Shown here one piece after another: positions 3,261 to 17,781 of a stretch of DNA of 42,971 nt. The first letter of the stretch is position 1, and the number at the start of each line of letters is the position of its first letter. The stretch spans positions 1-42,971 of the forward strand of contig CAMDDL010000020.1 of the NCBI GenBank assembly GCA_945891505.1, in the 5' to 3' direction. Position numbers and translations under genes: made by a program. The notes beneath the pieces are model-generated. The model did not search any database. It was not told where the DNA came from and worked only from the letters and a program-made list of their open reading frames with translations. This stretch comes from Maricaulis salignorans. Lineage in GTDB: Bacteria; Pseudomonadota; Alphaproteobacteria; Caulobacterales; Aquidulcibacteraceae.

Positions 3261-3321
3261 TCGTTGTCAGGGTTTGCGGGTCATGATTCACTGGTTTCAT
3301 TGATTTGCGGGGAATCTGGTG

Positions 3322-4710
3322 ATGATGGGACATCAAGAAGTATCGGCCCAGTTGTTTTATGACTTTCAGATTGAGGATCATGTTCCAGCTGACCATATTC
3401 TGCGGCGCATTGATGCTCATTTAGATCTTGAGAGCGTTCGTTCGGCCCTGAAGCCCTATTATAGCAACACTGGGCGGCCATCGATTGATCCAGATTTAAT
3501 GATGCGGATGCTGATCATTGGATATGCGATGGGCATCAGGTCAGAACGCAGATTATGCGAGGAAGTCCACCTTAACCTTGCCTATCGCTTGTTCTGCAGG
3601 CTTGGCCTAGAAGGCAAAGTTCCCGATCACTCGAGTTTCTCCAAGAACCGCCATGGGCGGTTTCGCGAGAGTGATGTCTTGCGCCATCTCTTTGAGACGG
3701 TGGTTGCACGTTGCTTGTCAGAAGGACTTGTTGGCGGCGAAGGCTTTGCGGTTGACGCAAGTCTAATCGCGGCCGACGCGAACAAGCAGCGCTCCATGTC
3801 GGGTGAACAATGGCGATCTGGGCAAGACATGGAGATGGCGGGACGCGCGGTCCAAGAGTATCTGGCTGTCCTTGATCACGAGGCCTTTGGTGCAGCCTCA
3901 CCGGTTCCACCAAAGTTTGTTGCAAAGTCCGATCCTGCTGCACAATGGACTGGTGCGCATAAAGGTCATGCCTTCTTTGCTTATGCGACTAACTATTTGA
4001 TCGATACCGATCACGGCGTCATTGTCGATGTTGAAGCTACACGCGCAATTCGCCAGGCTGAAGTTGGCGCATCGCGCACGATGATTGATCGTACCGAAGC
4101 TCGATTTGGCCTAAAGCCAAGTTATCTGGCAGCCGATAGCGCTTATGGCTCAGCTCATAACCTAGCTTGGTTGGTGAAAGAGCGCGATATCGCACCCCAT
4201 ATTCCTGTCTTTGACCAGTCTATACGAACAGACGGAACAGTCTCGCGATCTGACTTTACTTGGGAGGCCGAAAGAGACCGCTATACCTGTCCCGCTGGCA
4301 AAGAGTTGGTGCAGTTCCATCGCACTTATCAAACGCCACGATCGGGCATCACCAAAGCCGGCCAAAGGCTATATCGAGCGAGCACAAAGGACTGCCGTGT
4401 CTGCCCGCTCAAAGAACAATGCTGTCCCATAGCCACAGTTCGAAAAATCCCCCGCGACCTCAACGAAGACTCCCGCGATGTCGCCCGCCTCATCGCAACC
4501 ACGCCTGCCTATGCCAGATCACGTGATCGCCGGAAGAAAGTCGAGATGCTCTTTGCTCACCTCAAGCGTATTCTCAAAATGGGCAGGCTAAGATTACGAG
4601 GCCCAAACGGAGCCAGAGACGAGTTCCTACTCGCAGCCACAGCCCAAAACCTGCGAAAACTAGCCAAACTGCGACCAAATCCACATAAACGACCAGCCTT
4701 CGCCGCCTAA
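3322..4710 (+). CDS. IS1182 family transposase
   Basis: A 462-residue DDE transposase. The N-terminal domain (about residues 10-110) has the IS1182-type pattern, with the helix PDLMMRMLIIGYAMGIRSER followed by FCRLGLEGKVPDHSSFSKNR. Candidate catalytic residues are Asp in GFAVDASLI, Asp in LAADSAYG and Glu in RRKKVEMLFAHLKRIL. A Cys-rich insert (YTCPAGKE ... CRVCPLKEQCC) lies before the last acidic residue, as usual in this family. The start is one of GTG 3319, ATG 3322 or ATG 3325; GCGGGGA is 9-12 bases upstream of the ATGs. It mobilises the surrounding element by acting on the terminal inverted repeats. Confidence 0.92.
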   Translation: MMGHQEVSAQLFYDFQIEDHVPADHILRRIDAHLDLESVRSALKPYYSNTGRPSIDPDLMMRMLIIGYAMGIRSERRLCEEVHLNLAYRLFCRLGLEGKVPDHSSFSKNRHGRFRESDVLRHLFETVVARCLSEGLVGGEGFAVDASLIAADANKQRSMSGEQWRSGQDMEMAGRAVQEYLAVLDHEAFGAASPVPPKFVAKSDPAAQWTGAHKGHAFFAYATNYLIDTDHGVIVDVEATRAIRQAEVGASRTMIDRTEARFGLKPSYLAADSAYGSAHNLAWLVKERDIAPHIPVFDQSIRTDGTVSRSDFTWEAERDRYTCPAGKELVQFHRTYQTPRSGITKAGQRLYRASTKDCRVCPLKEQCCPIATVRKIPRDLNEDSRDVARLIATTPAYARSRDRRKKVEMLFAHLKRILKMGRLRLRGPNGARDEFLLAATAQNLRKLAKLRPNPHKRPAFAA

Positions 4711-7638: not shown

Positions 7639-8817
7639 TTGTCCCCACCCCTCCCCCCTTTAGCGTCGCTCAAGAACAAAACCATCCTGCAGGTTGTCCC
7701 TGAAATGGCAACCGGCGGCGTTGAGCGGACAACCCTAGAAGTCGCCAGTGCCATTATCGAAGCTGGTGGCCGTGCCTTGGTGTTCAGCGCAGGTGGGCGG
7801 TTGGTGCAGGAACTAGAAGCGCTTGGTGCAGTGCACATCCATGGCGAAGCGAACTCAAAACTGCCTTGGACCGTCTTTGTGTCCAACGTGTCCAAACTCG
7901 CCCAAATCGTGAGGCAAGAGCAGGTCGATATTGTTCATGCCCGTTCGCGCGCACCAGCCTGGAGCGCCTTACTCGCAGCGCGCCGCACAAAGACGCCGTT
8001 TGTAACGACCTATCACGGGATTTATAACGCCAAATCGGGCCTCAAGCGTTGGTATAATAGTGTGATGGCGCGCGGTGACCTTGTGATCGCAAATTCCGGC
8101 TATACGCGGGACCATGTACTTCAAGAGCACAAAATCGACTCCGACAGAATCGAAGTCATTTATCGCGGCGTCGATGTCGACGCGTTTGATCCGCAAGCTG
8201 TTTCAAAAAAGCGCCGCGAGGAACTTGCTAGCCAATGGGGCATTGCCCTTCAAAGCGCGCGGCCGCGTGCCATTCTGCCTGCTCGCCTGACAGCGTGGAA
8301 GGGTCAAAGAATAATGTTGGAAGCGCTTGGAATTTTAAAGCGCGCTGGCGTGGAGATCGATTGCCTGATGGTGGGCGACCCACAAGGCCGCGATACCTAT
8401 CGGGCAGAGCTTGCCCAAGATATCCGCCGCTTGGGCCTAGGGGACCAAGTCCATCTGGTTGGGCATTGTAATAACATGCCAGCGGCCTTTTCCTTGGCCG
8501 ACTTCGCCGTCACCCCCTCCACCGAACCAGAAGCCTTTGGTCGCACCGCCGCCGAGGCGCAAGCCATGGGCTTGCCAGTGATTGCCTCAGACCTTGGAGG
8601 TGCGCGCGAAACTGTGGAAGATGGGGTTACGGGCTTTCTGAGCCCTGCCGGGGATGGTAAGGCCTTGGCCGATTGTATCAGCCGACTTTTGGCGCTGTCA
8701 CCCGCAGAAAAAGCGGAGATGGGCGCTGCCGGCTCAATGCGGGTGCGGTCGCGCTTTACGACCCGCGCCCTTCAATTGGCCACAGTGTCGCTGTACCAGC
8801 GGCTGGTCAAAGCATAG
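7639..8817 (+). CDS. Glycosyltransferase family 4 protein
   Basis: A 392-residue GT-B fold glycosyltransferase. The N-terminal domain begins ILQVVPEMATGGVERTTLE, the usual GT4 start with the GGVER loop. The C-terminal nucleotide-sugar domain has the retaining E-x7-E signature in EAFGRTAAEAQAMGLP (about residues 293-308). It probably adds a sugar to a lipid or polysaccharide precursor on the cytosolic face of the membrane. The likely start is a TTG, because no ATG lies in frame near the beginning of the domain; the exact start is uncertain. It is followed after 17 bases by a GT9 gene, so the two probably form an operon for envelope glycoconjugate assembly. Confidence 0.88.
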   Translation: MSPPLPPLASLKNKTILQVVPEMATGGVERTTLEVASAIIEAGGRALVFSAGGRLVQELEALGAVHIHGEANSKLPWTVFVSNVSKLAQIVRQEQVDIVHARSRAPAWSALLAARRTKTPFVTTYHGIYNAKSGLKRWYNSVMARGDLVIANSGYTRDHVLQEHKIDSDRIEVIYRGVDVDAFDPQAVSKKRREELASQWGIALQSARPRAILPARLTAWKGQRIMLEALGILKRAGVEIDCLMVGDPQGRDTYRAELAQDIRRLGLGDQVHLVGHCNNMPAAFSLADFAVTPSTEPEAFGRTAAEAQAMGLPVIASDLGGARETVEDGVTGFLSPAGDGKALADCISRLLALSPAEKAEMGAAGSMRVRSRFTTRALQLATVSLYQRLVKA

Positions 8818-8834
8818 AAGTGGCAGGAACGGAC

Positions 8835-9833
8835 GTGAACCCGGAGCGGATCTTAGTTATAGTTTTGGGGAGTTTAGGCGATGCGGTCTTGGCCCTTGCC
8901 CCGCTTGCTATGTTGCGTGCCCATCACCAAGATGCTGAAATCACGGTGCTGACCCAACGCGGCAATGTGCGGTTTCTGTCAAAGTCTCCTTATGTCGACC
9001 GGGTCGATGTGCGCTGGCCGCAGACCAAGCTGGTCGACAGGGCCAAGTTCATTTGGTCTCTGCATCAAGAACGCTATGCGATGGTCTATGACTTGACCAA
9101 TAGCGCGGAAAGCGATGCTTTGTTCAAGCTATTGTGGCCTTTGCAGCCCAAATGGTCGGGTGGGGCCGTTGGCTGCTCGAACCCTCATGTTGACCGCACC
9201 CGACTGACCCTGCACCGACTTGACCGGCATGCAGAGCAACTTATGACTTGCGGCGTTGGGCCCAAAGAGGGCTTTGCCCCGGGTCTGTCGCCATTACCTG
9301 ACCTCGATTGGGTCGAATCAGTGGTGAAGGATCACACAAAGCTCACCCCGCGCCACCATGGCATTGGCGAGCCCTTTGCCTTTCTGGCCCCAGAAGGCCC
9401 AGCAGCAGACCCCACAAAGCGCTGGCCGACAGCGCGCTATGGTGAATTGGCTTTGGCTTTAGAGGCGCGTGGTATTCAGCCCGTGTTAGTGGGTGGACCT
9501 GCGGCGGTTGAACTGGCTGTTGAAATTCGCACGATCTCACCCAAGGCCTTGGACCTCGTAGCCCGTCTCGATGTGTTCCAATTCATAAGTTTGGCACGTC
9601 AATCCATTCTTGCCATTGGCTCTGAAGGCGATATGGCCATTATCGCGGCGGCCGCTGGCGCGCCAACATTGGCCATCATCAACCCGAACGAAACCAGTGT
9701 GCGCAAAGCCGCGCCGCGCGGAACAGCGACCGTGGGCCTTGTTGCGCGCAACTTCGATACCATCCGTGTTCAAGATGTTTTGGCCGCTGCACGCGCAGTA
9801 ACGCCGACAATTCTTGAAGCACAAACATCATGA
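8835..9833 (+). CDS. Glycosyltransferase family 9 (heptosyltransferase-like)
   Basis: A 332-residue GT9 protein of the ADP-heptose:LPS heptosyltransferase type. It opens with the family pattern [20 protein letters not shown] (GxxGD loop) and has the C-terminal sugar-nucleotide region [18 protein letters not shown] and [20 protein letters not shown], where the family usually has 'G.DTG..H.A'; here the T-G is replaced by E-G. A GTG at 8835 is chosen because AGGA lies six bases upstream; another GTG at 8820 is possible. It overlaps no neighbour with this start. Likely role: core or outer oligosaccharide assembly with the GT4 gene before it. Confidence 0.85.
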
Positions 9834-9868
9834 CGCCTTGAAGGATTGTTCATTTACATCCATTATCT

Positions 9869-9917
9869 CGGTGTGCCCGGTGAAACCCGGGACAAAGGCA
9901 TTTGCGGCACCACACCG
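9869..9917 (+). promoter_or_regulatory. Structured infC leader
   Basis: CGGTGTG (9869-9875) can pair perfectly with CACACCG (9911-9917), enclosing a second stem CCCGG/CCGGG (9876-9880 with 9887-9891). The structure ends 10 bases before the Shine-Dalgarno sequence of infC. It may influence translation of IF-3; the pairing is seen in the sequence, the role is inferred. Confidence 0.4.
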
Positions 9918-9927
9918 CGTAATTTAT

Positions 9928-9942
9928 GGAGAGACGAACATC
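9928..9942 (+). promoter_or_regulatory. infC ribosome binding site and AUC start
   Basis: GGAGAG (9928-9933) is six bases before an in-frame ATC (9940-9942). The next in-frame ATG (9952) is 18 bases from this site, too far. In many bacteria infC uses AUU, AUC or AUA, which IF-3 itself discriminates against, giving autoregulation. Confidence 0.7.
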
Positions 9943-10476
9943 AGACGCCCTATGGCTGCAACGCCCACTAAAGACGGCCCCCGTATCAACGAAGATATCC
10001 GCGCACCGCGCGTTCTTCTGATTGACGAGAATGGCGAGAAGCAAGGCGAGATGCCTTTAGCTGCAGCGCTAGATGCCGCGACAGAGGCTGGGCTAGACCT
10101 CGTAGAAATCGCAGGAACTGCAAACCCGCCTGTGGTAAAGATCCTCGATTATGGAAAATTCAAATTCCAAGAGCAAAAAAAGAAGAATGAAGCGCGCAAG
10201 CGTCAAAAGGTTGTTGAGCTGAAGGAAATCAAGCTCCGCCCGATGATCGACGATCATGATTATGACGTCAAAGCCCGCGCGATGTCTCGCTTCTTCGAAG
10301 AAGGCGACAAGGTCAAAGTGACCCTACGCTTCCGTGGACGCGAAATGGCGCACCAACATCTGGGGATCGACCTCTTGATGCGGGTCAAGCGCGACTTTGA
10401 AACCATTGCCAAGGTGGAGAGCGAACCTCGCCTCGAAGGCAAACAAATGACCATGGTCATGGCACCGCGCACTTAA
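9940..10476 (+). CDS. infC: Translation initiation factor IF-3
   Basis: A 178-residue IF-3, close to the family's usual length. The N-terminal domain holds [17 protein letters not shown] and [19 protein letters not shown]. The basic linker is [20 protein letters not shown], and the C-terminal domain contains [20 protein letters not shown] and [11 protein letters not shown]-3 binds the 30S subunit, rejects non-canonical start codons and prevents premature 50S joining. I place the start at an ATC behind GGAGAG, consistent with IF-3 autoregulation through a rare start codon. rpmI-rplT do not follow; the gene ends at its own terminator. It follows the GT9 gene after about 100 bases. Confidence 0.95.
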
Positions 10477-10509
10477 CACGCGCTTGTGTTGTGACACTGC
10501 TGACTGAGC

Positions 10510-10544
10510 CGCCCTCCTGCCTGTGCGGGGGGGCGTTTTGTTTT
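10510..10544 (+). terminator. Terminator after infC
   Basis: CGCCCTCCTGC (10510-10520), loop CTGT, GCGGGGGGGCG (10525-10535), an 11-bp stem with two G-T pairs, then TTTTGTTTT. Confidence 0.88.
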
Positions 10545-10560
10545 GGGGTGGGGCTGCTTT

Positions 10561-10610
10561 GCGCCAAGGGTGGTCGTTTGGGGCGGGTTGGCGGCTGCTC
10601 AAAAGCGGAC
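10561..10610 (+). repeat. Dispersed repeat C, copy 2
   Basis: GCGCCAAGGGTGGTCG ... GGGTTGGCGGCTGCTC followed by AAAAGCGGAC. Matches copies at 3190-3239 (inverted) and 13838-13889. It lies between the infC terminator and the convergent GST gene. Confidence 0.7.
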
Positions 10611-10683: not shown

Positions 10684-11307
10684 TCAGTCAAAGGCCAACA
10701 TGCCCACTCCCACAGCAGGCCGTTCGCCGATGCGGGCCAGCCATTCGGTTACAATGGGCTTGTCGAGGAGTGCGGGGAAGCCGTGATCGAGGCCGGCCTT
10801 GAGCCATGGATAGTGCATGATGTCGGCTATGGAGTAGTCGCCCGCAAGGAATGGCCGTCCATCGCCGAGCATGCGTTGAACCACGCTTGTTAAACGCACA
10901 CATTCGCCAAAGAATAGCGCCATCATTTGTGGGTTTCTGTCAGCCTCTTTGGCCGTTAGTTGCTCGTTCAAGCGACCTAGGTTGGGACCAATATGGGCGG
11001 CTTGAAAGAAGGCACCCTGAATTGCAGCGTAACGGGCCGCGCCCGACTTTGCTAGAATGATGCCTTTGGCGTCATACTGATCGGCCAAATAAGTAAGAAT
11101 TGCGCCTGATTCCCAAATTGTCATGCCCGTCGCGTCGTCATGCAACACTGGGATCTTGTTGTTGGGCGCAATATCTAAAAACCACGCTTCATGTTGCTCC
11201 TTTTGATCAAGCCGCAAATGACGGGGCACCCAATCGAGGCCAAGCTCTGCCAAGCCAATGGCGACCTTGCGCGCGTTTGTGGTCGCGGCACCATAAAGGG
11301 TGATCAT
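10684..11307 (-). CDS. Glutathione S-transferase family protein
   Basis: A 207-residue GST-fold protein. The thioredoxin-like domain starts MITLYGAATTNARKV, with NNKIPVLHDD giving the cis-proline and WESGAIL the glutathione gamma-glutamyl binding site (about residues 65-71). The helical domain carries YSIADIMHYPW. It resembles the YfcG/Ure2-like branch, which often has disulfide-bond reductase activity; that is inference. It is the last gene of a four-gene unit, overlapping the membrane protein gene by four bases (ATGA), so translation is probably coupled. Its context with an ArsR-type regulator suggests detoxification of a thiol-reactive compound or metal(loid). Confidence 0.9.
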   Translation of the reverse strand: MITLYGAATTNARKVAIGLAELGLDWVPRHLRLDQKEQHEAWFLDIAPNNKIPVLHDDATGMTIWESGAILTYLADQYDAKGIILAKSGAARYAAIQGAFFQAAHIGPNLGRLNEQLTAKEADRNPQMMALFFGECVRLTSVVQRMLGDGRPFLAGDYSIADIMHYPWLKAGLDHGFPALLDKPIVTEWLARIGERPAVGVGMLAFD

Positions 11308-12044
11308 ATGGGCCTCTCCGTATCCGTTTTAGGTTGCAAGGATGCCAACATCCAGCGTCGCCAAGACGGGACACAGAGAGGCACGAGGATGCTGATGAGA
11401 AGAATACTGCTTGAAAGGGCAATACCAGCGCCTGAATATAGCGCTTGGCCGATGTTGGCGAACAAGAAGGCCTGCACCGTGCACCCGAATAGAACTGCAA
11501 CGATGAAGCGAAAGAGGCTCATGCCTGACAATATCGCGGCGTATTGAAAGACGTGCTTCGGAAAGAACGGATACGCGCAAATGCCAAACAATGCCCACGC
11601 GCTCATGCGGCCTTGCGCCAGTTTGCGAACCCACGCCTGAACCTTAGTTGGCAATGTGCTCAATACTTTATCCCGGCCTAAAATGGCGACTAAGGCAAAC
11701 TTCAACATGCCAGACAGGAACATGCCAAGCCCAGCGTAAAGGGTGCCATAAACAGGACCAAAAATCGCGCCACCCGCCAAAAGCAACAAACCGGTGGGAA
11801 TAAGAAACAGAAAGCGGAACGCCAGAATCCCGACGAATGCGAGGGCACCCCAGATCCCCAAGCCCTGCACAAAGGCGCGTAAAGAGTCTAAGTTCCAATC
11901 GATTTTGAGTTGAGTTCGGATCACAATGGACACGCCAATAAGACCGAGCACAATACCAATCAGCAACAGCCAACGATAAAGCGGCACGCCGACAATTTCG
12001 ATGAATAGCCACCTACTTGACCTCAAAGTCGCTTCCTTATGCAT
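11304..12044 (-). CDS. TVP38/TMEM64 family membrane protein
   Basis: A 246-residue inner-membrane protein with about six hydrophobic segments. The first follows a basic cytosolic stretch (residues 19-41). The VTT (SNARE-associated/DedA-like) core is marked by FRFLFLIPTGLLLLAGGAIFG and the later re-entrant region with GICAYPFFPKH. Relatives include DedA proteins and eukaryotic TMEM41/VMP1, with roles in lipid movement and membrane homeostasis; bacterial TVP38 proteins are mostly uncharacterised. It overlaps the upstream ATP-grasp gene by 8 bases and the downstream GST by 4, placing it inside a translationally coupled unit. Confidence 0.88.
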   Translation of the reverse strand: MHKEATLRSSRWLFIEIVGVPLYRWLLLIGIVLGLIGVSIVIRTQLKIDWNLDSLRAFVQGLGIWGALAFVGILAFRFLFLIPTGLLLLAGGAIFGPVYGTLYAGLGMFLSGMLKFALVAILGRDKVLSTLPTKVQAWVRKLAQGRMSAWALFGICAYPFFPKHVFQYAAILSGMSLFRFIVAVLFGCTVQAFLFANIGQALYSGAGIALSSSILLISILVPLCVPSWRRWMLASLQPKTDTERPI

Positions 12045-13317
12045 CGGTTAGGATCACGGGGGCAAAGCCGCCGCCAGAGGTACGGAAGTTCGTTGTTTGG
12101 CCCTGATATGCCCGGGCGGCCAACATCAAAGGATCACCTGAAAACGTATAAACCCTGATATCGAACTTCAAGGCTGCCGGGCCTACTTCAGTGGCAACAA
12201 GCCGCGTATGGGGTGCCACAAAGGCTTGGGCGACGTATCCACCTTTTAGAATCTCGCTCCAAACGCGTTGTGTTAGTTTATCGCCACGATAGGCCGCCGC
12301 ACCGCCAAATCCGGTGGCAGGCTTAAAAAACAGATGCCTGCGTCCAGCCCACAGGGCATCAGCCCTTTCGAGTGTTACTTCGACGGTTTCGGGTAGGTTC
12401 GCCAGTGCGCTTAAGTGTCGGGGTGCTAAGTTCAGCGCGTCGCGTTTTGCAGCATCGCTTAGAAATGCGAGATTGCGCTTGTCGGCATACAAAGCATGAT
12501 GGCGAGGCGAAGGCGTAACGACGACTTGATCTTGCAGCATTGCAGCTCGCAAGACCTCAGAATGGGGCATAGCCAACGCAAAATCTGTCAGACGATTGTA
12601 GACTATGTCAATGACCTGATCTCCTGCCATCAGGCCGCGGGGACCAATTGCAAGTGAAGCGGCGTCGACAATGATTGTTGTGATACCCTGTTTATTCAAA
12701 AGTGCCTGCGCCAGCAACATGTCAGGATAGAGATATTGCCCTTCAGGATTGTCATCGACAATTGCAAGTGTTTGGGGCTGACCTAACCGACCAGCAGCGC
12801 GCCATTCTGACACCACCATCTCATAGATGCGCTCTTCGAAGCGACTGGCCCCAAACGCAAGAAAGCCGGGCAGCGGTCCACTCTGGACGGCGCCGCTCAG
12901 CGCATGAACAAGAAATACGCCGCCGGCATTGGTATTGACCTCAATCAGGCGCGGACCATCTGGGGTGATATGGAAATCATAGCCCATTAGAACGCCACGC
13001 GTTTGGGGCTGGATATTGACTAAAGCATCATCGGCTCTAGATGGATTTATGTTCTGATAGCTGATGGTCTTAGCCGCCGCTTCAATGGCGTGAATCTGGT
13101 CAATCATGTCGTCGAGATCGCTGGCCGCAAGAAAAACGCCAGTACTCGCAAATAGGTTTGGCTTGGCAGCCAAAAGACTGGCCATTTCTGGGACGTTTAC
13201 CGACGAAAGAATCGAAGCGTCAATTTGCTGGCGGCCCAATGGCAGACAAAAACAAGTCTCATTGAGCGCAGCAATTTCCGCCTTGTCTGGTATTAAGTTA
13301 CCTGCCTTGGCGTTCAT
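12037..13317 (-). CDS. Circularly permuted ATP-grasp protein, unknown substrate
   Basis: A 426-residue soluble protein with ATP-grasp motifs in an unusual order. The metal-binding end of the fold comes first: MGYDFHITPDGPRLIEVNTNAGG (broken here after 20 residues in spirit) spans residues 111-133, with Glu126 and Asn128 as ligands. A Rossmann-like segment follows (TLAIVDDNPEGQYLYPDM, about 183-200, to VYNRLTDF at 239-246). The ATP-binding Lys332 (HLFFKPATGFGGAA) and the Asp386/Arg388 pair (KFDIRVYTF) are C-terminal. In ordinary ATP-grasp ligases the E-x-N motif is last. Such enzymes join a carboxylate to an amine or thiol through an acyl-phosphate. It overlaps an ArsR gene by 4 bases and a membrane-protein gene by 8. 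Confidence 0.75.
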   Translation of the reverse strand: MNAKAGNLIPDKAEIAALNETCFCLPLGRQQIDASILSSVNVPEMASLLAAKPNLFASTGVFLAASDLDDMIDQIHAIEAAAKTISYQNINPSRADDALVNIQPQTRGVLMGYDFHITPDGPRLIEVNTNAGGVFLVHALSGAVQSGPLPGFLAFGASRFEERIYEMVVSEWRAAGRLGQPQTLAIVDDNPEGQYLYPDMLLAQALLNKQGITTIIVDAASLAIGPRGLMAGDQVIDIVYNRLTDFALAMPHSEVLRAAMLQDQVVVTPSPRHHALYADKRNLAFLSDAAKRDALNLAPRHLSALANLPETVEVTLERADALWAGRRHLFFKPATGFGGAAAYRGDKLTQRVWSEILKGGYVAQAFVAPHTRLVATEVGPAALKFDIRVYTFSGDPLMLAARAYQGQTTNFRTSGGGFAPVILTDA

Positions 13318-13640
13318 GCGCTGATCTCGTCGTCAAGAATCTGGACAGTCTCAGGGCGCTTGCCGCAGCAATCATGCATCAGAAACTGCATCAATTCACT
13401 GAAGCGGTCGTAGCAAGCGCAATAAATTACTTCACGACCATTGCGGGTCGATCTGACAAGGTTTGCGTTTGTCAGAACCAAAAGCTGTGCCGAAGCCGTA
13501 GTTGGGCCGATCTGAGCAAAGCGGGCAAGATCGCCCGCAAGCATGCCCTGTGGCCCCGCTTGGATCAGCCTGCGCACCAGCGACAATCGCCCTTCATGAG
13601 CAATTGCAGACAACATTTTAATAGCGATCTTTTGTTCCAT
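13314..13640 (-). CDS. ArsR/SmtB family transcriptional regulator
   Basis: A 108-residue winged-helix repressor. It opens MEQKIAIKMLSAIAHEGRLS, the usual ArsR start, followed by the recognition region GPTTASAQLLVLTNANLV and the wing RNGREVIYCA. Possible thiol ligands are a Cys-x-Cys in the wing (CAC) and the adjacent pair in HDCCGKRPE near the C-terminus; ArsR proteins with a DCCGG.PE tail are common beside arsenic genes. I chose ATG 13640; ATG 13655 is an alternative, but that codon lies within a dyad that looks like the operator. Its stop overlaps the next start (ATGA), so it heads and probably autoregulates the four-gene unit, being released by a metal(loid) or other thiol-reactive signal. 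Confidence 0.9.
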   Translation of the reverse strand: MEQKIAIKMLSAIAHEGRLSLVRRLIQAGPQGMLAGDLARFAQIGPTTASAQLLVLTNANLVRSTRNGREVIYCACYDRFSELMQFLMHDCCGKRPETVQILDDEISA

Positions 13641-13660
13641 ATTCCATGGATACATGAAAT
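13641..13660. promoter_or_regulatory. Candidate ArsR operator
   Basis: ATTCCATG-GATA-CATGAAAT, an 8-4-8 dyad with 7 of 8 pairs matching, immediately upstream of the proposed ArsR start codon. Position and symmetry fit an autoregulatory ArsR site; no experimental support. Confidence 0.45.
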
Positions 13661-13760
13661 GATGACAGGAAGCAAGGCGAAGTTTCGTCTACCCTTCGCC
13701 TTGTTTCTCATCTCCGATTCTACAGTTTTTCGAACGTCGAGGTCTTGGTGTTAAATGGCA

Positions 13761-15249: not shown

Positions 15250-15909
15250 TCACCGCGGGGCCAAATCATCCTTCAACGCACGGTCCAAAAGCTCCATGTC
15301 CAAATCGACCGAGGCCAAATCAGGCTCCACCACCGCACGTTCGAAGCTGGCGAAGGCCTCTTGTAAGCGGCCCAACGTATGGTCGATTTCCTGTAAGCGG
15401 GCTTGGCCGGCATGGGCCTCTAGCTTGAGGCGGTCAGACACCAGATCGGCTGTGGCGGGCAGATAATAAGTAAAGAATCGTAAGATGTGGTTCAGTTTTT
15501 CTGGATGGCTCGCCACCGTGTCCAAAATGGTCAAGGCGTGGCGCGCTAAGGCATCGAGCACGTGACCGACGTTAAGCGGCACAATTGGGATAGCCGCGCG
15601 CAAAACCATTATATGCTGATGGGCCTCGACCAGAAGCGCGTGGCGGGGATCGTCATCTTCTGGATCAAGCACGGGCGGACTGGGCAGATCAGCCCCAGCT
15701 TTACCTTGAAACAGTCGCGGCAAGCCCACCGTCAGAAAGCCATAGAGCGATAGCGCCACCAGCCCGGCTACAATTGGTCCAGAGCGGACCTCCACCAGCA
15801 AAGCGCCGCCAACCGCTAAAGAGACTGCCAGAGAGCCAAAAATAACCCACCACGAGGTTCCAGCCCCGCCACGGCGCGGCTTGTCCGACCGAGATGGCGG
15901 CTTTGGCAT
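15250..15909 (-). CDS. XpaC-like protein (5-bromo-4-chloroindolyl phosphate hydrolysis family)
   Basis: A 219-residue membrane-anchored protein. Two hydrophobic segments (about residues 19-41 and 45-62) are followed by a cytosolic helical domain with the family hallmark RFFTYYLPATADLV (about 140-153). The C-terminal region, LQEIDHTLGRLQEAFASFER, is predicted coiled coil. The family name comes from a phosphatase phenotype in Bacillus XpaC; the biochemical role is unclear. Three bases separate it from a paralogue, and both follow telA, the usual partner of xpaC genes. Confidence 0.82.
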   Translation of the reverse strand: MPKPPSRSDKPRRGGAGTSWWVIFGSLAVSLAVGGALLVEVRSGPIVAGLVALSLYGFLTVGLPRLFQGKAGADLPSPPVLDPEDDDPRHALLVEAHQHIMVLRAAIPIVPLNVGHVLDALARHALTILDTVASHPEKLNHILRFFTYYLPATADLVSDRLKLEAHAGQARLQEIDHTLGRLQEAFASFERAVVEPDLASVDLDMELLDRALKDDLAPR

Positions 15910-15912
15910 CGC

Positions 15913-16671
15913 TTAGCCCTTTGTCTTATGCGCGAATTCGTCGTCCAGAGACTGGTCGAGCAAGCGCATATCGATCTCTAGGCTGCGGGCATCATGGCCC
16001 CGCAGCCGGCTGGCGAAATCGGTATAGGCAAGGTCGAGCTTGCCAATCATGGTATCAATTTCAGCTAATCGAGCAGGCTCCGCACCACCTGCAACCGCAC
16101 CACGTGCGCCCAATAGGTCGGCGGTGGCGGGCAGATAATAGGTGAACAGGCGCTGGACATCGGATAATTTAGACGGATCTTGCCGCAAGCCCATCTCTAC
16201 TTCCTTAACGCGCGCGACCATATTGCGCAAGCGCGCGCCAAGTTCACCTTCGGCTACGCTGGCAGCAGCCTCTAGCCGCACCAGTGCGGGCGCAGCTTCA
16301 GCAATGACGGCTTGATGGAGCTTGGGTGGGGCTTCTGGTTCGGGTAAGGCCTCACCATTTGCGCGCGCACGGGCAGCGGCTTCGGATTCGCCACCTTGGC
16401 GACGACGACGATCATCTTCATCCTCGTCTTCGTCATAATAGTCATCGTCACTTTTGTCGTAACCCCATAGGTCATCCACGGTGTCGCGCTTGCCACCAAA
16501 GAAGCCGAGCGACCCGCCAGCGGCAAAAAACAAGCCGATGCCGACCCAGGGATTAAAGCTGCAAATAGCCCAGATGAAGAACCAGAATGCAAGCACACCA
16601 AAGGATTGCGGCGAGCGAATCCGAACGGCGAACTCTTCTTTCATCCAATCTTTCGAACGGCGACGGGACAT
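15913..16671 (-). CDS. XpaC-like protein, second paralogue
   Basis: A 252-residue relative of the following gene with the same hallmark RLFTYYLPATADLL (about residues 185-198) and the same C-terminal helical ending (DMRLLDQSLDDEF against DMELLDRALKDDL). It has two hydrophobic segments (about 22-57) and then a very acidic linker of Asp, Glu and Tyr followed by arginines (about 70-95), absent from its paralogue. It is probably an inner-membrane protein with a cytosolic domain. The gaps to telA and to the other xpaC-like gene are three bases each, so the three form an operon. Likely a tandem duplication that diverged in the linker. Confidence 0.82.
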   Translation of the reverse strand: MSRRRSKDWMKEEFAVRIRSPQSFGVLAFWFFIWAICSFNPWVGIGLFFAAGGSLGFFGGKRDTVDDLWGYDKSDDDYYDEDEDEDDRRRRQGGESEAAARARANGEALPEPEAPPKLHQAVIAEAAPALVRLEAAASVAEGELGARLRNMVARVKEVEMGLRQDPSKLSDVQRLFTYYLPATADLLGARGAVAGGAEPARLAEIDTMIGKLDLAYTDFASRLRGHDARSLEIDMRLLDQSLDDEFAHKTKG

Positions 16672-16674
16672 GAA

Positions 16675-17781
16675 TTAGGTCACGCGCCCTTGCACCAAAG
16701 CCTGTCGTAATTCTTGGGTCATTTCGTCCATCCGCTTTTCGACCATAGCCCGCTTCTGACGGCCTTCCTCTTGCGTCGAAAGGACACCGGAAAGCGTGTC
16801 GATCAAATCGCGATTGGCTTGTTCCAAGGTTTCAAGATCGACGATCCCGCGCTGAGACTGCTCTTCAATCGCGATGGCTTGCTCTTTCATCATCGATGAT
16901 GTTTGGCGCAGCATCTCATTGGTAGCGTCCGTGACGGCCTTTTGCATCGCCAAAGCGTCTTCTTGACGGCGCAGCCCCAAGAGCAGCACCATTTTTTGCT
17001 TCCACAAGGGGATGGTTAGGCGGGTTGAAGCCTGCAAGCTCTCGACCAAGGTCTCATCGCCCGCTTGCACAATCCGGATTTGCGGCAATTGTTGGATGCC
17101 GATTTGACGGGCCTGCTTCAGATAGAAGATGCGCTTTTCCAAGCGCTCCATCGCTTGCTGGGCGTCGCGGTAGGCTTGCGCCTCAATCAGGCCATCGCCG
17201 GTCAACAGGGCTTCATCGGCAATGGTCTTCAACTCTGGCAGACGGGTTGCTTTAATCTCTGCCGCAAACGCTTCGCCAGCTTCGACATAGGCGCTGAGTT
17301 GCGCAATCGACGCGGCGGTTTGCTCATGCAAGTCGTCCATGACGGCAATGTCACGACGCAAGCCGTCTTTGCGCTTTTCCAATTGAATGCCGATGGCATC
17401 AATCTGGCTGGCAACATCTTCAAACTTGCCTTTGAATTTCTCAATTTCGGCCTTGGCGCCGCCAAACAATTTACCGAAGAAGCCCTTCTTCTGCATGGCG
17501 GCAGGATCAAGGCCTTTGGCTTTGGCGATGATACTGGTCAACAAAAGGCCCGTGTCGCCAAGCTCGCGATTTTGCGTTTGGGCGAGGATCCGATCCGCAT
17601 AGGCAACCACATTGCGCTGTGCATTATCGCCAAAAGTGGCGATTGAAGCCCGGTCATCCAAGGATAATTGGCCGCGAATGCGGGTGAGGTCTTTGGACTC
17701 AACCTTGATCTCAGGCAATACGGCTTCTGCCGACACCGTATCGACTACGGTTGTTTTGGTGGCATTTGCATCATCACTCAT
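16675..17781 (-). CDS. telA: TelA/KlaA family toxic anion resistance protein
   Basis: A 368-residue cytosolic, mostly helical protein of the TelA family. Recognisable are the GFFGKLFGGAKAEIEKFKGK segment (about residues 100-120), IDAIGIQLEKRKDGLRRDIAV, and the C-terminal LETLEQANRDLIDTLSGVLS followed by EGRQKRAMVEKRM. The family is named from tellurite-resistance determinants, but in most bacteria its role is unknown and it is linked with stress or membrane functions. It leads a three-gene operon with two xpaC-like genes, an arrangement seen in other bacteria, which supports a shared complex at the membrane. Confidence 0.88.
   Translation of the reverse strand: MSDDANATKTTVVDTVSAEAVLPEIKVESKDLTRIRGQLSLDDRASIATFGDNAQRNVVAYADRILAQTQNRELGDTGLLLTSIIAKAKGLDPAAMQKKGFFGKLFGGAKAEIEKFKGKFEDVASQIDAIGIQLEKRKDGLRRDIAVMDDLHEQTAASIAQLSAYVEAGEAFAAEIKATRLPELKTIADEALLTGDGLIEAQAYRDAQQAMERLEKRIFYLKQARQIGIQQLPQIRIVQAGDETLVESLQASTRLTIPLWKQKMVLLLGLRRQEDALAMQKAVTDATNEMLRQTSSMMKEQAIAIEEQSQRGIVDLETLEQANRDLIDTLSGVLSTQEEGRQKRAMVEKRMDEMTQELRQALVQGRVT

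Follow-up and report, generated by a model that had tools for sequence, protein, structure and literature searches.

What would a small operon gain by placing a ligase between an arsenic-type repressor, a membrane protein and a glutathione S-transferase (GST)? This question is raised by a 42,971-nucleotide stretch of Maricaulis salignorans DNA (contig CAMDDL010000020.1, hereafter the window), in which four minus-strand genes encode an ArsR-like repressor, a permuted ATP-grasp protein (AG), a VTT-domain (TVP38/TMEM64-type) membrane protein and a GST. The genes form one bacterial operon whose core is ArsR and AG. Our best reading, which we hold tentatively and rate just short of an even chance, is that of an autoregulated, metal(loid)-induced ligase operon, the product of which would make or alter a small, probably thiol-containing, peptide. 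This reading is built on the kinship of AG to glutathione synthetases, on the recurrence of its relatives among metal(loid) resistance genes and on a palindrome that directly precedes the repressor gene.

AG is a distant relative of permuted glutathione synthetases

No Pfam or NCBIfam model matched the window AG at E 0.1, and a Pfam search of 44 members of its family returned weak matches to several ATP-grasp families, the best being to CP_ATPgrasp_2 (6e-5). When an AlphaFold2 model of AG (pLDDT 91.1, pTM 0.92) was compared to the PDB using Foldseek, the best matches were 1m0w, 8fbz, 3kal and 2hgs, a set that includes human glutathione synthetase (GSS) and homoglutathione synthetase and is headed by yeast glutathione synthase with gamma-Glu-Cys (1m0w; E 3e-16, TMq 0.66). 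Lower matches comprised 3n6x, GspS and Cp1B, the last a fungal E-64 ligase according to an excerpt of PMC12568646. A structure search of BFVD found no viral relatives at E 0.001 or better.

A PF03917 search of the phylum supplied a comparison set of six bacterial eukaryotic-type GSS proteins (6 of 249 genomes), and a profile of the six finds human and yeast GSS at E < 1e-60. Aligned to these six proteins, AG profile A1 gave a probability of 94.7 (E 5.9e-8) and was collinear over 358 columns, and profile A2 gave a probability of 77.5 (E 1.9e-5). Because the structure matches and the collinear alignment agree, we place AG, as judged from model and profile, as a distant collinear relative of the circularly permuted (eukaryotic-type) GSS, which upholds and sharpens the permuted ATP-grasp ligase-like assignment of the first-pass annotation. 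Membership in the glutathionylspermidine synthetase family (PF03738) was considered and rejected, as A2 aligned to GSP_synth with an hhalign probability of 1.7 (E 0.029) and PF03738 was absent from the Pfam families matched by the 44 members.

Across 68 aligned long-type AGs (the longer of two types described below), residues N19, C22, C24, D114, H116, E126, N128, K280, K332, D386, R388 and R412 are invariant. Of these, K280, K332, E126, N128 and D386 are invariant in both A1 and A2 and, with the fold, place the protein in the ATP-grasp superfamily; R412, read by eye, is presumably the counterpart of the C-terminal Arg of GSS, at an end where the profile alignment is poor. AG thus shares with eukaryotic-type GSS (PF03199/PF03917; 1m0w, 2hgs, 3kal) the fold, the order of the permuted ATP-grasp motifs, the E-x-N motif and a pair of aligned lysines, K280 and K332, but differs from it in lacking a Pfam match, in carrying glycines at positions 112 and 336, in its extra N-terminal CxC and in its metal-island context. 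PF03199 and PF03917 were not among the 19 families matched at E up to 1 by the window AG or the 44 members, and PF03917 had no match in the window's genome. The CP_ATPgrasp_1/2 proteins (3n6x, PF04174/PF14403) are permuted ATP-grasp proteins as well, with 3n6x being the best PDB sequence match (E 0.037) and PF14403 being touched by 12 of the 44 members at E up to 1; unlike them, the window AG has no PF14403 match, and two members score 20.6 and 19.1 bits against a gathering threshold of 32.

The family comprises two types. Long-type AGs are mostly 400 to 460 amino acids as called and carry an N-x-x-C-x-C motif in 104 of 108 dereplicated loci (in L196, one of the four lacking it, AG is cut by the contig end), while short-type AGs are about 350 to 385 amino acids long and carry the motif in none of 12. 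Separately, the AGs of L033, L036 and L186 share a C-terminal extension of ~120 residues, which had no Pfam match in L033 and L036.

Long-type AGs mostly lie near metal(loid) resistance genes

Gene calling covered the window together with loci from genomes and plasmids (67 in all) and 80 loci from a genome-contig scan, 147 altogether. AG was called in 143 of them (L102, L180, L189 and L212 were dropped before the counts), and dereplication at 90% identity left 120 loci: 108 long-type loci, and a short-type set of 12 that includes L121, which the tree places with the long type. The 108 long-type loci do not sample the family at random: 61 were among the 80 top-scoring matches in a single scan, and six came from plasmid hits chosen among 20 listed of 31. 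Neighbours were grouped by single linkage, and 12 clusters were labelled by eye as metal(loid)-related, with one representative of each checked against Pfam (ArsR was checked otherwise); the RND and CusB-type clusters may include drug exporters, and the ArsR cluster includes a few proteins without a Cys pair. Twenty loci at arbitrary offsets in 20 of the same genomes served as controls.

At least one of the 12 clusters was found within 6 kb of AG in 78 of the 108 long-type loci, compared to one of 12 in the short-type set and two of 20 controls. The enrichment held when plasmids were excluded (73/102, Fisher p 3e-7 versus controls) and when only copper and arsenic effectors were considered and ArsR was left uncounted (50/102 versus 0/20, p 9e-6). 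By source of loci, the metal-linked share was 25/41 for the genome search, window included, and 48/61 for the contig scan. Counted by cluster, P-type ATPases were found near 32 long-type AGs, ArsR near 25, multicopper oxidases near 22, ArsC near nine and ACR3-like proteins near six. ArsR, the commonest immediate neighbour, occupies the position directly upstream of AG in 16 of 107 loci and shares the strand of AG in 13 of these; at every other position up to seven genes away it was found in zero to four loci. Family assignments of directon neighbours, of which 150 of 177 entered the Pfam and NCBIfam tallies, gave a similar picture, with 19 ArsR metalloregulators, eight copper P-type ATPases and six arsenate reductases (thioredoxin).

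Individual loci illustrate the range of these contexts. AG stands within ars clusters in the orders ArsR-AG-low-molecular-weight ArsC-aquaporin-glutaredoxin-type ArsC (L074), ArsR-AG-ArsC (L080), ArsR-ArsC-aquaporin-AG (L099), ArsR-AG-ArsI-ArsC-ACR3-like (L117; ArsI 134 bits, cut-off 116) and AG-GAPDH-ArsJ-ArsR-short ArsC (L118; both ArsJ-pathway models above cut-off), and in L163 AG directly follows ArsH, the opposite strand carrying ArsR, ArsC and ACR3-like genes. On plasmids, AG accompanies copper resistance B, C and D proteins and a multicopper oxidase (Halomonas pHAL1), a multicopper oxidase (pSinB), or MerT, MerF, MerA and alkylmercury lyase encoded upstream of it (pMR68, L032); the last was scored as a miss, as mer genes fall outside the 12 clusters. 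On these metal-resistance plasmids, the AG relatives are annotated as 'hypothetical protein'.

On a quickly built tree of AGs, supported by SH-aLRT only, the ArsR label changed 15 times, fewer than in any of 200 shuffles (mean 22.8, minimum 18), indicating that the ArsR linkage is clustered yet of several origins. The window AG falls in a clade of 10 rows (SH-aLRT 98), eight of them labelled ArsR and seven with ArsR directly upstream; in L133, a row labelled ArsR, the gene is distant, on the opposite strand and without a Cys pair. The conserved AG-ArsR linkage raised by the first-pass annotation is thus recurrent, and extends to metal(loid) resistance genes. As computation, it is solid that AG is GSS-like, matches no family model and is linked to ArsR and metal genes.

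Two further contexts were observed among these loci: one gene cluster directly upstream of AG in L090, L093 and L094 (its L090 member being OsmC-like), and phosphoketolase, acetate kinase or phosphoglucomutase genes near AG in L031, L036, L098, L107 and L113, with copper genes in L031, L036 and L107.

The repressor and its probable operator

The window ArsR scored just under the curated cut-offs (NF033788, 49.7 of 55 bits; PF12840, 26.3 of 27 bits), and its best PDB match was AfArsR (6j05, E 2e-6), with the CC pairs of both proteins aligned. It was described at first pass as thiol-bearing, and its sequence holds cysteines at positions 79, 81, 96 and 97 (numbering of the open reading frame, ORF), with C96-C97 forming a C-terminal pair after which no further Cys occurs. 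Translation probably begins at the ATG at 13640 (MEQKIAIK...), five codons downstream of the start called for the ORF, since most AG-linked homologues begin there and a palindrome directly precedes this codon.

According to an excerpt of PMC11868830, AfArsR uses Cys95, 96 and 102, while SpArsR lacks the third Cys and answers MAs(III) and not As(III). The window ArsR has the CC pair of AfArsR, a type 2 repressor, but no third Cys, and so departs from the CC-plus-third-Cys pattern of type 2 As(III) sensors. At the level of sequence it resembles SpArsR, whose CC pair also stands without a third Cys as far as the same excerpt goes, yet it differs from both proteins in its additional C79 and C81, and its operon contains no known arsenical enzyme or efflux pump. 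The ArsR of a second genome of the genus (G003, locus L073) is like that of the window, with C79 and C81 present and no Cys after the pair, whereas a CCx6C arrangement is found in the ArsRs of ars clusters L074 and L099 and in that of a canonical arsR-acr3-arsC operon encoded elsewhere in the window's genome (G000:C41). The latter operon is likewise under a CC-bearing ArsR, but in this repressor the pair is followed by another Cys (CCGGRPDLC), and the operon holds efflux and reductase genes. The window operon has neither an efflux pump nor an arsenate reductase, only the VTT and GST genes following AG, though AG relatives do sit in ars clusters.

The palindrome, ATTTCATG-TATC-CATGGAAT, abuts the ArsR start codon, and a counterpart, TATTTCATG-TATC-CATGAAATA, occupies the same place in L073. 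Close palindromes occur there in L197 and L145 and, by eye, a weaker one in L134, and the ArsRs of ars clusters L074 and L117 have looser versions. A search of the 3.07-Mb genome with TTTCATGN4CATGRAA gave one exact site, the window palindrome itself, and one other with one mismatch (C12), and the reversed control pattern gave none. We consider the palindrome a probable ArsR operator. Its recurrence, and the single exact match to its core pattern in the genome, make it most likely that the repressor controls the operon to which it belongs. A 14-nt inverted repeat upstream of arsR (13669-13707) was rejected as an operator, being partly changed in G003 and not reported for that genome. Scans for sigma-70 promoters and terminators gave signals no more than in shuffles.

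Operon layout and the VTT and GST partners

The coordinates bear out the description made at first pass of an operon of four genes overlapping by 4, 8 and 4 nt in turn (Table 1). G003 carries the same four genes in the same order and with the same 4/8/4 overlaps (ArsR 7640-7966, AG 7963-9243, VTT 9236-9976, GST 9973-10596), while the flanks are unlike, with a UbiE methyltransferase gene upstream in L073 and IF-3 downstream in the window. The ratio of nonsynonymous to synonymous substitution rates (dN/dS) between the two genomes was 0.085 for ArsR, 0.153 for AG, 0.090 for VTT and 0.102 for GST, and all four genes are under purifying selection. As order and overlaps are kept at another neighbourhood under such low dN/dS, the arrangement goes beyond chance. 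AG was found in one of eight genus-mates (G003) and in 22 of 60 genomes of the family, the window's own counted (E 1e-10), which together with the dN/dS values points to a maintained cassette of patchy spread. The AGs of the window and L073, 86% identical, were counted as two loci.

Table 1. Genes of the window operon and the probable operator
Feature	Coordinates	Strand	Basis
ArsR-like repressor gene	ORF 13314-13655; probable true extent 13314..13640	minus	HMM matches just below cut-off; 6j05 match
AG (permuted ATP-grasp protein) gene	12037..13317	minus	fold model and profile comparison; conserved residues
VTT-domain (TVP38/TMEM64-type) membrane protein gene	11304..12044	minus	PF09335 above cut-off
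GST gene, YfcG/YghU/Ure2p-like	10684..11307	minus	three GST_N families above cut-off
Palindrome, probable ArsR operator	13641..13660	minus	directly before ArsR start codon; recurs in AG clade

The VTT protein scored 54.4 bits against PF09335 (cut-off 33.9). Relatives of it near AG were found in L073 only, as searched by tblastn in the 147 loci and by phmmer among called genes (E up to 1), other kinds of VTT protein not being sought by family model. The TVP38 linkage suggested at first pass accordingly fell, and a conserved four-gene linkage was rejected for VTT proteins of the window's type; rarer domains could escape the Pfam tally, which gives the first 25 of 139 families. The GST linkage proved weak, with GSTs of the window's type near AG in four of the 108 loci: the window, L073, L084 (the next gene on the same strand; L187 is the same contig) and L138 (ArsR-GST-AG). 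As GSTs are common genes, these cases are only suggestive; a more distant GST lies near AG in L180.

The best, near full-length, match of the window GST among NCBIfam models was the YfcG equivalog, at 94.1 bits and hence below its cut-off of 332, and its best PDB matches were the bacterial GSTs 6tah, 6tum and 4eci, followed by YfcG (5hfk, 3gx0), Ure2p-like proteins and YghU (3c8e). In E. coli K-12 the thiol ligase gene gss adjoins yghU, so that there, as in the window operon, a ligase gene stands beside a YghU/YfcG-type GST. The likeness may serve as a parallel and is no proof; gss and yghU are divergent, and the profile comparison does not group AG with GSP_synth.

The narrow distribution of the VTT gene raises the alternative that ArsR and AG are the sole functional unit and that VTT and GST are passengers in this lineage's operon. 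In the clade members L110, L145 and L151, indeed, ArsR and AG have no further same-strand neighbours. Against this, the four genes keep their overlaps and strong purifying selection in two genomes and at different places, and a GST adjoins AG also in L084 and L138. We regard the alternative as possible but rather doubtful.

Short-type AGs are linked to glycosyltransferases

The short-type AGs have a context of their own. In a genome count of TIGR04283, in which the types were split by score and 50 of the listed TIGR04283 places were entered, so that adjacency is a lower bound, at least 34 of the 70 genomes with a lower-scoring (short-type) AG encoded this family directly downstream of it, and 64 of the 70 encoded it anywhere; co-occurrence of AG and TIGR04283 was 74/89 versus 82/308. 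Among 20 fetched short-type loci, TIGR04283 was next to AG in 16 and followed by TIGR04282 in 14, with L273 to L276 lacking it; the loci with this arrangement (L130, L131, L259-L272, L277 and L278) are chromosomal and come mainly from one family. The name given to TIGR04282 by NCBI, arsenosugar biosynthesis glycosyltransferase, is a family label only.

AG may accordingly be read as part of an organoarsenical or glycosylated-metabolite pathway with TIGR04283 and TIGR04282, the window's partners being encoded elsewhere in its genome, where a TIGR04283-TIGR04282 pair is indeed found (G000:C2). The adjacency described above speaks for this reading, as does a Hellea metagenome-assembled genome of the window's own clade (L196), in which a TIGR04282-like gene (989-1600; 131.6 bits, cut-off 134) overlaps the 3' end of a long-type AG. 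However, the cases are not independent, as one bacterial family (f169) dominates them; adjacency was found in 0 of 19 long-type genomes (among the matches listed), with TIGR04283 present at all in 10 of the 19; ArsS in the window's genome is sub-threshold (44.4 of 300 bits); and the function of TIGR04282 rests on its NCBI name. Taken as a whole, this pathway strikes us as unlikely for the window operon.

In L122, L123, L125, L128 and L132, another short-type context was observed by eye, consisting of an MFS transporter, a ~70-amino acid protein, an SbcC-like ATPase and a PstS-like protein.

A proposed mechanism and what weighs against it

Under the metal(loid)-induced ligase reading, the ArsR-like repressor would occupy the palindrome abutting its own start codon in the resting cell, and binding of a soft metal(loid) to its cysteines would release it. 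More fitting than arsenite at a site of three cysteines would be an inducer that two thiols can bind, methylarsenite for example, or some other thiophile. AG, as a ligase of GSS fold, would spend ATP on converting a carboxylate to an acyl phosphate and couple this to an amine, yielding a new or extended small, probably thiol-containing, peptide able to bind or buffer As, Cu or Hg; metal may be sensed or held by the N-terminal CxC of AG. Reduction or conjugation of this product would fall to the YfcG-like GST, and the VTT protein would have its role at the membrane, both being accessories of this lineage under this reading. The proposal made at first pass, that a small peptide or thiol is made or attached, fits the predicted fold; of that annotation as a whole, the ArsR, the ATP-grasp protein, the operon and the ArsR/metal linkage stand, the TVP38 linkage does not, and the GST linkage is weak.

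Several observations weigh against this reading, in addition to the restriction of the VTT gene to the window and L073. None of the 12 metal(loid) clusters was found at 30 of the 108 long-type loci, and for 34 of the 108 AGs no gene on the same strand was found within 150 bp. Taken together, the copper, mercury and arsenic contexts speak against a role confined to arsenic. In the clade members L134, L145 and L197 further cysteines follow the ArsR pair, which makes the two-Cys state a trait confined to the genus of the window. The window's genome also encodes GshB and a GSP_synth protein alongside the canonical ars operon, so the need for an AG operon is not obvious, and its own GshB makes a product other than plain glutathione the more plausible one. 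The linkage to TIGR04283 and TIGR04282 is the strongest hint that the AG product may carry a sugar, which a thiol product does not predict. Finally, R109 and E368 (L234 numbering), invariant in the six GSS proteins, align to G112 and G336 of AG, of which the former is Gly in at least 90% of sequences in both AG alignments and the latter is invariant in the 68 long-type members; with two GSS-invariant residues replaced by glycine, AG is unlikely to catalyse the GSS reaction itself.

Two other roles for AG were weighed. ATP-grasp relatives include protein modifiers, and weak Pfam TTL matches in two of the 44 members (E up to 1) would suit an amidoligase that acts on a macromolecule in metal stress, tagging a protein or peptide; yet the closest folds and profiles are those of small-molecule ligases, and no constant protein partner was seen beside AG in the called loci, leaving this role decidedly improbable. 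That AG is a second GSS raising glutathione under metal stress, as its fold and collinear homology could suggest, is very hard to credit given the two glycines, the absence of PF03199 and PF03917 among the families matched, and the GshB already present.

If the metal(loid)-induced ligase reading is taken further, AG would represent a new ligase family, repeatedly recruited to As/Cu/Hg islands. Its product, built together with TIGR04283 and TIGR04282, would be a low-molecular-weight thiol or sugar-peptide of Proteobacteria not described before, synthesised when needed to keep soft metal(loid)s bound; in this full form we consider the idea a speculative long shot. The AG family did not turn up in full-text searches of open papers, which took in AG-like proteins with metal(loid) resistance or ArsR as well as the glycosyltransferase neighbours and leave subscription papers aside. 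PMC7826186 treats another ATP-grasp protein (MysC-like), and PMC10092412 reports one ATP-grasp protein, which may or may not be kin to AG, as up under Cd and Cu. What emerges is a widespread family, its window member without a Pfam or NCBIfam match, that appears to be a distant GSS relative tied to soft-metal defence. Were AG to yield a new thiol or a conjugate of one, the ars, cop and mer systems, which are deemed well understood, would gain a further layer of chemistry, and the ArsR palindrome offers a ready handle toward the inducer.

Neighbouring genes

Upstream of the operon and on the same strand, the window carries two PF10112 genes and TelA (toxic anion resistance, 305 bits) at 15250-17781; no such genes were recognised by eye around the G003 cassette. 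A transposase gene (PF05598, PF13751, PF01609) lies at 3319-4710, ~6 kb from the operon.

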